From Actinomycetota bacterium (GTDB lineage: Bacteria; Actinomycetota; Actinomycetes; Mycobacteriales; JACQDL01), in NCBI GenBank assembly GCA_016201065.1, contig JACQDL010000057.1:100572-164571 (forward strand): a stretch of 64,000 bases of DNA. Direction: 5' to 3'. Of the stretch, positions 57,794 to 59,635 are shown one piece after another (within the stretch, counting starts at the first letter, position 1; each line of letters starts with the position of its first letter). A program made the position numbers and the translations under genes. A model generated the notes under the pieces. That model made no database searches. It was not told the DNA's origin and worked only from the letters and a program-made list of their open reading frames with translations.

Positions 57794-57853
57794 GCGTGCG
57801 CTCAGTTGTCGGGACGCGCTCGGTGGTCGGGACGATCGAAGGGCAGGCCAGCC

Positions 57854-59290
57854 ATGTCAGTCACGAGTCAGGGCACCCCCGGGCCGGGTGCCGCGCTGGA
57901 GATACGACCGGGTGAGTACGGCGAGCGGGTGGCTGCCGTCGAGCCGGGTGGCGTGGAGTTCATCCCGACCGCCGAGCGGCACGGCCGACCCCGCCAGCTG
58001 CTGTGGACCTGGGCGTCGCCGAACCTGGAGTTCGCCACCATCTTCGTGGGCGTGATCTCCGTGGAGTTCTTCGGCCTGAGTTTCTGGCAGGCGCTGCTCG
58101 CGCTGTTCGTCGGCACCGTGCTCGGGTCGGTGACCCACGGCGTGCTCTCCGCCCGCGGCCCCGGGCACGGTGTCCCGCAGATGGTGCTCGGCCGGGTCGC
58201 CTTCGGTCACTGGGGCAACCTGCTGCCCGCCGGGCTGATGTCACTGATGGCCGGGATCGGCTGGTTCGCGGTGAACAGCGTGAGCGGGGCGTTCGCGCTG
58301 GCCGCCCTCACCCACCTACCCGACCTGGCCAGCCTGGCGCTCGTCGTCGCGGCACAGATCGCGGTGGCGTTCTTCGGGCACAACCTGGTCCACGTCTTCG
58401 AGCGGCTGATGTTTCCGTTCCTGGCCGTGGTCTTCGCCGTCGGCGCGGTGGTCATCTTCAGCAAGTCGCACCCGGGTGCCCCGGGCACCGGCGGTGGCAC
58501 CGGCGGCATGCTGATCACCGCGGCGGCGGCGTTCGGCTACGCCGCGGGGTGGAACCCCTACGCCGCCGACTACACCCGCTACCTGCCGGCCGACGCCCGC
58601 CGCCGCCTCGTCGGCGGCTACGCCGGCCTGGGCATGTTCCTCTCCTGTTTCCTGCTGGAGGCCGTCGGTGCCGCCTCGGTGACCATCGGCGCCCCCGAAG
58701 GCAATCCGACGGCGGCGTTCACCGGCAACCTGCCGAGCATCCTCGCCCAGCTCACCCTGCTCGCGATCGCGGTGGGCGCGGTGTCGGCCAACGTTCTCAA
58801 CATCTACTCCGGCGCGATGGCGTTCCTCACGATGGGGCTGCGGGTCTCCCTGGCCTTCCGCCGCGCCCTGGTGGGGTTGATCTTCGGTGTGCTCGGGTTC
58901 CTCGTGGCGTGGTCCGGGCTGAGCGACGCGGGCACGAAGTACGAGAACTTCCTGCTGGTCGTCGCCTACTGGGTCGGTCCGTGGCTCGGCGTCGTCTTCG
59001 CCGACCAGTGGCTGCGCCGCGGCCAGCGCATCGACGGCATGTTCTTCGACCGCGCATACCGGAACTTGGCCGGTCCGGCGTCGATGCTGGTGGGGATGGC
59101 GATCTCGATCCCGCTCTTCTCCAACCAACAGCTGTACGTCGGGGTGGTGGCCAGGCACGTGCCCGCAGTCGGTGACATCACCTTCCTGGTCGGGTTCGTG
59201 CTGTCCCTGCTCAGCTACCTGCTGCTGACCCGCCGGGTGCGGCAACCCGCGGCGCAGCGACTGGAACCCTCGCCGGACCGCACGGTGTGA
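57854..59290 (+). CDS. NCS1-family cytosine/purine permease
   Basis: 478 residues with 12 predicted membrane helices. WTWASPNLEFATIFVGVISVEFFG and AAGWNPYAADYTRYLP are NCS1 motifs (the second is in helix 6-7). It imports cytosine or related nucleobases with a cation. GGCAGG precedes ATG 57854; the track start at 57806 is weaker. It follows the deaminase gene directly and completes an import-deamination pair. Confidence 0.9.
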   Translation: MSVTSQGTPGPGAALEIRPGEYGERVAAVEPGGVEFIPTAERHGRPRQLLWTWASPNLEFATIFVGVISVEFFGLSFWQALLALFVGTVLGSVTHGVLSARGPGHGVPQMVLGRVAFGHWGNLLPAGLMSLMAGIGWFAVNSVSGAFALAALTHLPDLASLALVVAAQIAVAFFGHNLVHVFERLMFPFLAVVFAVGAVVIFSKSHPGAPGTGGGTGGMLITAAAAFGYAAGWNPYAADYTRYLPADARRRLVGGYAGLGMFLSCFLLEAVGAASVTIGAPEGNPTAAFTGNLPSILAQLTLLAIAVGAVSANVLNIYSGAMAFLTMGLRVSLAFRRALVGLIFGVLGFLVAWSGLSDAGTKYENFLLVVAYWVGPWLGVVFADQWLRRGQRIDGMFFDRAYRNLAGPASMLVGMAISIPLFSNQQLYVGVVARHVPAVGDITFLVGFVLSLLSYLLLTRRVRQPAAQRLEPSPDRTV

Positions 59291-59336: not shown

Positions 59337-59352
59337 ATACCCCTAGGGGTAT
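59337..59352. promoter_or_regulatory. Perfect CsoR/CstR-like palindrome
   Basis: ATACCCCTAGGGGTAT is a perfect 16-bp palindrome and the form of sites bound by copper sensor CsoR or persulfide sensor CstR. TAGGCT (59356-59361) just after it is a plausible -10, so the protein would block a promoter. No CsoR-like gene is in the window. Confidence 0.65.
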
Positions 59353-59464
59353 CTGTTAGGCTGAGCCCAGCCGCCCATGCGCGGACCGTGGCCGCAGGCC
59401 GTCGACGTCGTGGCGCGGTTCTGTCTTGTCGCCGCCCTACCCAGGATGACCCCGAGGAGATCAC

Positions 59465-59635
59465 ATGTGCCAGCCCGCCACCTGCCGGACCTGCGGCAAG
59501 GCCTCCTACACCGGCTGTGGTCAGCACGTCGAGCAGGTCCTGCGCGGTGTCGCCAGGAACCAGCGGTGCTCCTGCCCACCGAGCGCGCGGCGCGCCAGCG
59601 GTGGCTCACTGCTGTCCCGGCTTCTGGGCCGCTGA
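59465..59635 (+). CDS. Small Cys-rich protein, likely metal-binding
   Basis: 56 residues, too short for the ORF track. It has six Cys (C2, C7, C10, C18, C35, C37), with CRTCGK forming a CxxC knuckle and CSC another pair, and a conserved GCGQHVEQVL segment. ATG 59465 has GAGGAGATCAC upstream. A zinc or copper site, or a persulfide-sensitive thiol cluster, is likely. The perfect CsoR/CstR-like palindrome about 113 bp upstream suggests control by copper or sulfane sulfur. The 3' end overlaps the converging ackA gene by 30 bp. The biochemical role is unknown. Confidence 0.75.
   Translation: MCQPATCRTCGKASYTGCGQHVEQVLRGVARNQRCSCPPSARRASGGSLLSRLLGR

Follow-up and report, generated by a model that had tools for sequence, protein, structure and literature searches.

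The question raised by this locus is which gene, and which response, is served by the palindrome ATACCCCTAGGGGTAT at positions 59337-59352 of the 64,000-nucleotide stretch of DNA that was analysed (the window). The 16-bp palindrome is perfect, as the preliminary description had it, shows the form TACCC-N4-GGGTA and is regarded, by its sequence, its genome-wide count and the form of the published ScCsoR site in the available part of that source (PMC7533328), as a putative CstR-type operator without strand assignment. It is followed, after 112 bp (about 113 bp in the preliminary description), by the ATG of an open reading frame for a protein of 56 residues (59465-59635, + strand), which is preceded by a ribosome-binding site GAGGAG (59454-59459, +) and carries cysteines at positions 2, 7, 10, 18, 35 and 37 and a histidine, H21. 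The GC content of this six-Cys ORF by codon position, 0.64/0.68/0.88, is the pattern expected for a coding gene of high GC, and its start and Cys pattern are kept in homologues. Short genes such as this tend to be missed in gene tables. As the upstream NCS1-type permease gene on the same strand (57806-59290, +) stops short of the palindrome and the downstream acetate kinase gene is convergent, the six-Cys gene is the sole gene that the site could head. The proposed overlap of the palindrome with a likely promoter holds in part: a scan for sigma-70 consensus promoters around the site gave no match, but two putative -10 elements occupy positions 59350-59362 on the + strand: TATCTG, which overlaps the right half-site, and TAGGCT at 59357-59362. 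At other sites of the same genome, the right half-site runs into TATACT (contig C43), TATGAT (C45) and TATTGT (C31), and such TANNNT-like elements suggest a promoter over the palindrome.

Throughout the 3.65 Mb genome, TACCC-N4-GGGTA was found in nine places versus none for the reversed control, and the 16-mer with at most two mismatches in seven. Eight of the nine N4 sites fall at sulfur genes that form a largely coherent group, the exception being a weaker copy on C52. Besides the site of the window before the six-Cys gene (C17), these are the site ATACCCCTGCGGGTAT before a CsoR-family gene at its own promoter (C45), the sites at genes for a metallo-beta-lactamase-rhodanese protein of the persulfide dioxygenase (PDO) type (C31), a thioredoxin-like/rhodanese fusion (C43) and a rhodanese with a YgaP-type membrane domain (C9, where site and gene are about 490 bp apart), two sites at a rhodanese gene followed by a thioredoxin gene (C41), and one at a PIG-L deacetylase gene, the sulfur role of which is not evident (C38). 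PIG-L enzymes include mycothiol enzymes; the leader and first residues of the C38 gene (L020:5633-6461) resemble those of the C41 rhodanese gene (L018), which looks like a capture of promoter and N-terminus.

The three CsoR-family genes of the genome are located on C45, C16 and C46 and none is found in the window, in agreement with the preliminary description, which had seen no CsoR gene nearby and had proposed the search for csoR and further site copies that yielded the regulators and the nine N4 sites, most of them at sulfur genes. The C45 regulator possesses C-G-C at the three positions which are Cys-His-Cys in copper CsoR, is therefore CstR-like, and is the only CsoR-family regulator of the genome without the copper histidine. 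The C16 and C46 genes, on the other hand, encode C-H-C proteins, adjoin copper ATPase genes and are associated with sites that have an N5 spacer, which is also the spacer of the RicR motif. Since ATACCCCTAGGGGTAT shares its N4 spacer with the site at the C45 CstR gene, while the copper CsoR sites are N5, it is of the CstR kind. The features of a CstR regulon occur together in this genome, namely an operator of the ATACC-n6-GGTAT form, a two-Cys, no-His regulator with its own site (C45), and the same site at persulfide dioxygenase and rhodanese genes (C31, C41, C43 and C9).

A copper output, for which a CsoR/RicR-type copper repressor would bind the site and the six-Cys protein would be a MymT-like copper metallothionein, has to be weighed at this point, as the half-sites TACCC/GGGTA are common to copper CsoR sites, two copper-type C-H-C CsoRs are encoded in the genome, and the protein is as small and Cys-rich as a copper metallothionein would be; yet the copper loci of this very genome have the N5 spacer and the site before the six-Cys gene has N4. 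The homologues bear on this alternative as well as on the CstR assignment.

A profile built from eight members matched in 48 of 397 sampled actinobacterial genomes, and seven further records were found in Humibacillus, Nocardioides, Ferrithrix, a Thermoleophilia MAG, an Acidimicrobiaceae MAG and two Acidobacteria MAGs; the resulting homologue set comprises 61 genes, the window's own included, with some contigs short. No homologue was found in viral contigs. A conserved, uncharacterised actinobacterial type had been proposed, which is apt as regards conservation and the lack of a named family, but too narrow in view of the two Acidobacteria MAGs. Within 250 bp upstream, 22 of the 61 loci carry ATACCC-N4-GGGTAT with no more than one of its 12 letters changed, and 20 of these match it exactly; the chance expectation is about 0.005 when the genome-wide density is taken as about 347 sites (a hand-made sum) over an estimated 1.15 Gb. 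An N5-spaced site in the 250 bp upstream, and an N4 site in the 250 bp downstream, were each found at none of the 61 loci. Likewise, 40 random regions of the same size, drawn from 20 of the same genomes, contained neither N4 sites nor the sulfur genes considered below. Genomes with the six-Cys protein harbour N4 sites in 28 of 48 cases versus 76 of 349 (Fisher p = 6e-7, with phylogeny ignored). That the palindrome does not control the six-Cys gene, being a chance or unrelated site with an ORF that is spurious or separately expressed, is hardly credible: the 112-bp distance and the missing consensus promoter would suit such a reading, but the same N4 site stands directly upstream of homologues in many families and no other gene could be headed by it. 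A chance palindrome was rejected on the nine sites against none for the reversed control, the sites upstream of homologues and the empty control regions.

The end of the operator coincides exactly with the start codon (ATACCC-N4-GGGTATG) in ten loci, and in an eleventh if one mismatch is allowed (L030, L031, L032, L062, L064, L068, L069, L070, L072, L075 and L082). As TACCCT is placed as a -10-like box in this fused 17-bp element, the genes with fused operator, promoter and start codon look leaderless, the promoter being read from the sequence. An operator which doubles as start codon in several lineages would represent a very compact regulatory design. On the Rhodococcus plasmid pREL1, the site ATACCCCTACGGGTAT is located 52 bp before the six-Cys gene. 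As an observation in its own right, four genomes of one family (G080, G263, G294 and G349; family f23) carry 17 to 33 exact ATACCC-N4-GGGTAT sites each, compared with the usual one to six.

Genes for CstR, PDO, rhodanese or thioredoxin are found within 4 kb at 28 of the 61 loci, and an N4 site or a sulfur neighbour, taken together, at 41; the 20 loci with neither include both acidobacterial ones. The six-Cys gene is often located beside cstR, and all 22 distinct CsoR-family neighbours are Cys-x-Cys proteins without the copper histidine, none being C-H-C. On the Curtobacterium plasmid pC1a, the order is CstR, six-Cys gene, rhodanese, DsrE and TauE, then trx and an MBL gene. Proteins with combined CoA-disulfide-reductase and rhodanese parts, called by a CGLPY-type motif with one confirmed by Pfam, are encoded near the six-Cys gene in L083, L084, L086, L088 and L091 and, 0.9 kb upstream on the opposite strand, in L110; PDO-rhodanese proteins occupy that upstream place in other loci, and TauE recurs. 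In addition, genes for MMPL-like transporters, called by eye on the basis of a single cluster, lie near the six-Cys gene or CstR in nine loci (L027, L032, L072, L075, L100, L101, L104, L111 and L113), and the transporter is a possible further regulon member.

Copper-ATPase-like (CopA-like) genes, on the other hand, are not enriched near homologues, with 2 of 61 loci compared with 1 of 40 controls. With this, with the copper histidine missing from every one of the 22 neighbouring regulators, and with no N5 site upstream of any homologue, the metallothionein alternative becomes highly improbable, and the copper reading of the six-Cys gene was rejected on spacer, regulator residues and neighbours. 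From the stand-alone copper or sulfane-sulfur output that the preliminary description had offered, the genome and the 61 loci thus favour the sulfane-sulfur half, while the copper half falls with the N5 spacers and the lack of copper ATPase enrichment.

At some loci, the N4 site appears to have been replaced. In five loci without it (L063, L067, L071, L081 and L094), the palindrome WTGTCCGKACAW precedes the six-Cys gene, and other copies of WTGTCCGKACAW in such genomes (L167-L172) are located at PDO, SulP, SQR-like and rhodanese genes; the control regions contained none. This location at sulfur genes where N4 is absent seems to place the six-Cys gene under another sulfur-linked switch, by which a lost CstR operator would have been substituted. 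GntR-UTRA regulator genes adjoin PDO or TauE in such genomes, and our guess is that GntR proteins bind WTGTCCGKACAW, the sites of which perhaps constitute an undescribed sulfur-responsive GntR regulon. A third palindrome, CTCACGCACGGCGCGTGAG, was observed 70-84 bp before the six-Cys gene in two related genomes (L077 and L087).

The protein itself has no family in Pfam or NCBIfam at its cut-off, and no sequence match among solved structures. The motif GCGQHV was not found in the literature searched, nor was a paper linking a small Cys protein to CstR. Invariant in all 61 homologues are C2, C7, C10, G17, C18, G19, H21 and C35, while position 37 varies between Cys (47 homologues) and Gly (14). 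AlphaFold, run on eight sequences, gave a hairpin-helix model of moderate confidence (mean pLDDT 72, pTM 0.47), in which C7-x2-C10 is located at the turn of the hairpin, while C18-x2-H21 precedes a short helix; in this model, C7, C10, C18 and H21 fit a single structural zinc site. As the model is moderate and the fold search gave no significant match, the zinc and persulfide chemistry is read from conservation. C2, which removal of the initiator Met should leave as the N-terminal residue, and C35 are invariant outside the zinc-finger-like motif, which suggests thiol chemistry. Our best guess, if a tentative one, is a thiol protein serving as acceptor, carrier or guard of sulfane sulfur. The main rival is a regulon member that would act as a zinc-finger adaptor or regulator, for example on CstR, thioredoxin or a reductase, instead of as a sulfur carrier. 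It is the C-x2-C...C-x2-H pattern with the hairpin-helix model, a weak resemblance to the C5HC2 zinc finger as closest Pfam entry (E = 0.008, two of eight members) and the frequent vicinity to cstR that speak for an adaptor, but C2 and C35 outside the pattern are equally invariant and the CW zinc fingers matched by fold in the PDB fall short of significance (E >= 4.5), so that no significant match to a named zinc finger or zinc ribbon family or fold exists. An adaptor seems somewhat less likely than a sulfur carrier.

The six-Cys protein is thus very probably a conserved member of the CstR sulfane-sulfur regulon, most likely an overlooked part of the sulfane-sulfur detoxification response and not a copper gene, and may be a small zinc-binding thiol protein; as comparative genomics, the support for such a regulatory role is strong. 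The CstR-type repressor encoded on C45 would recognize ATACCCCTAGGGGTAT as its operator and, in the reduced state, bind over the promoter and repress the six-Cys gene. Persulfide or polysulfide would modify the CstR cysteines and release the DNA, whereby the six-Cys protein would be induced together with persulfide dioxygenase, rhodaneses and thioredoxin-like proteins; it is this shared operator and induction that would make the protein a component of the sulfane-sulfur detoxification regulon. The gene stands alone here and lies elsewhere within CstR-rhodanese-TauE or persulfide-reductase operons. C7, C10, C18 and H21 would hold a structural metal, and C2 and C35(-x-C37) would serve to take up or carry sulfane sulfur or to protect thiols. 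In a broader and more speculative proposal, this unnamed Cys3His-plus-free-thiol family might be a core and widespread effector in the sulfane-sulfur homeostasis of bacteria. It would be dedicated to carrying or accepting persulfide for PDO, rhodanese or CoA-persulfide reductase, and would have been recruited independently to CstR and, probably, GntR-type sulfur regulons and spread on plasmids. As the sulfane-sulfur response has so far been described via few enzymes, PDO, rhodanese, TauE and SQR, a conserved six-Cys protein that tracks this response in many families of actinobacteria would supply a protein component that has been missing.

Among known systems, Staphylococcus aureus CstR is a persulfide sensor of CsoR fold which, like the C45 regulator, has two cysteines without the copper histidine and sulfur targets, but controls sulfurtransferase, PDO-rhodanese and TauE genes in one single compact operon; we know of no six-Cys homologue in that system. 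TTHA1953 of Thermus thermophilus, a CsoR-family repressor of sulfur genes via cysteine reactivity, shares the TAC-GTA inverted repeats, but has a longer operator, TACNNTACNNNNGTANNGTA, and sulfur-oxidation targets, with a small Cys protein not mentioned in the available part of the source (PMC10318464). The RicR regulon of Mycobacterium tuberculosis shows a similar architecture, as a CsoR-like repressor acts there at scattered promoters, one of which drives the small Cys-rich MymT; however, RicR is copper-responsive and MymT is a copper metallothionein (PMC10961391), whereas an N4 site and sulfur partners are found here. Streptomyces coelicolor ScCsoR (SCO0620), according to the available part of its description, binds ATACC-n6-GGTAT before PDO, rhodanese and its own genes and is released by polysulfide via Cys37 and Cys66, which derepresses the targets (PMC7533328). 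The likeness extends from the operator form, which matches that of ATACCCCTAGGGGTAT exactly, and the two-Cys CsoR-family repressor to the targets, its own gene, persulfide dioxygenase, rhodanese and a TauE-type transporter; that part of the source names these four target genes and mentions no small Cys protein (PMC7533328), whereas the targets here lie dispersed through the genome, with the six-Cys gene among them.
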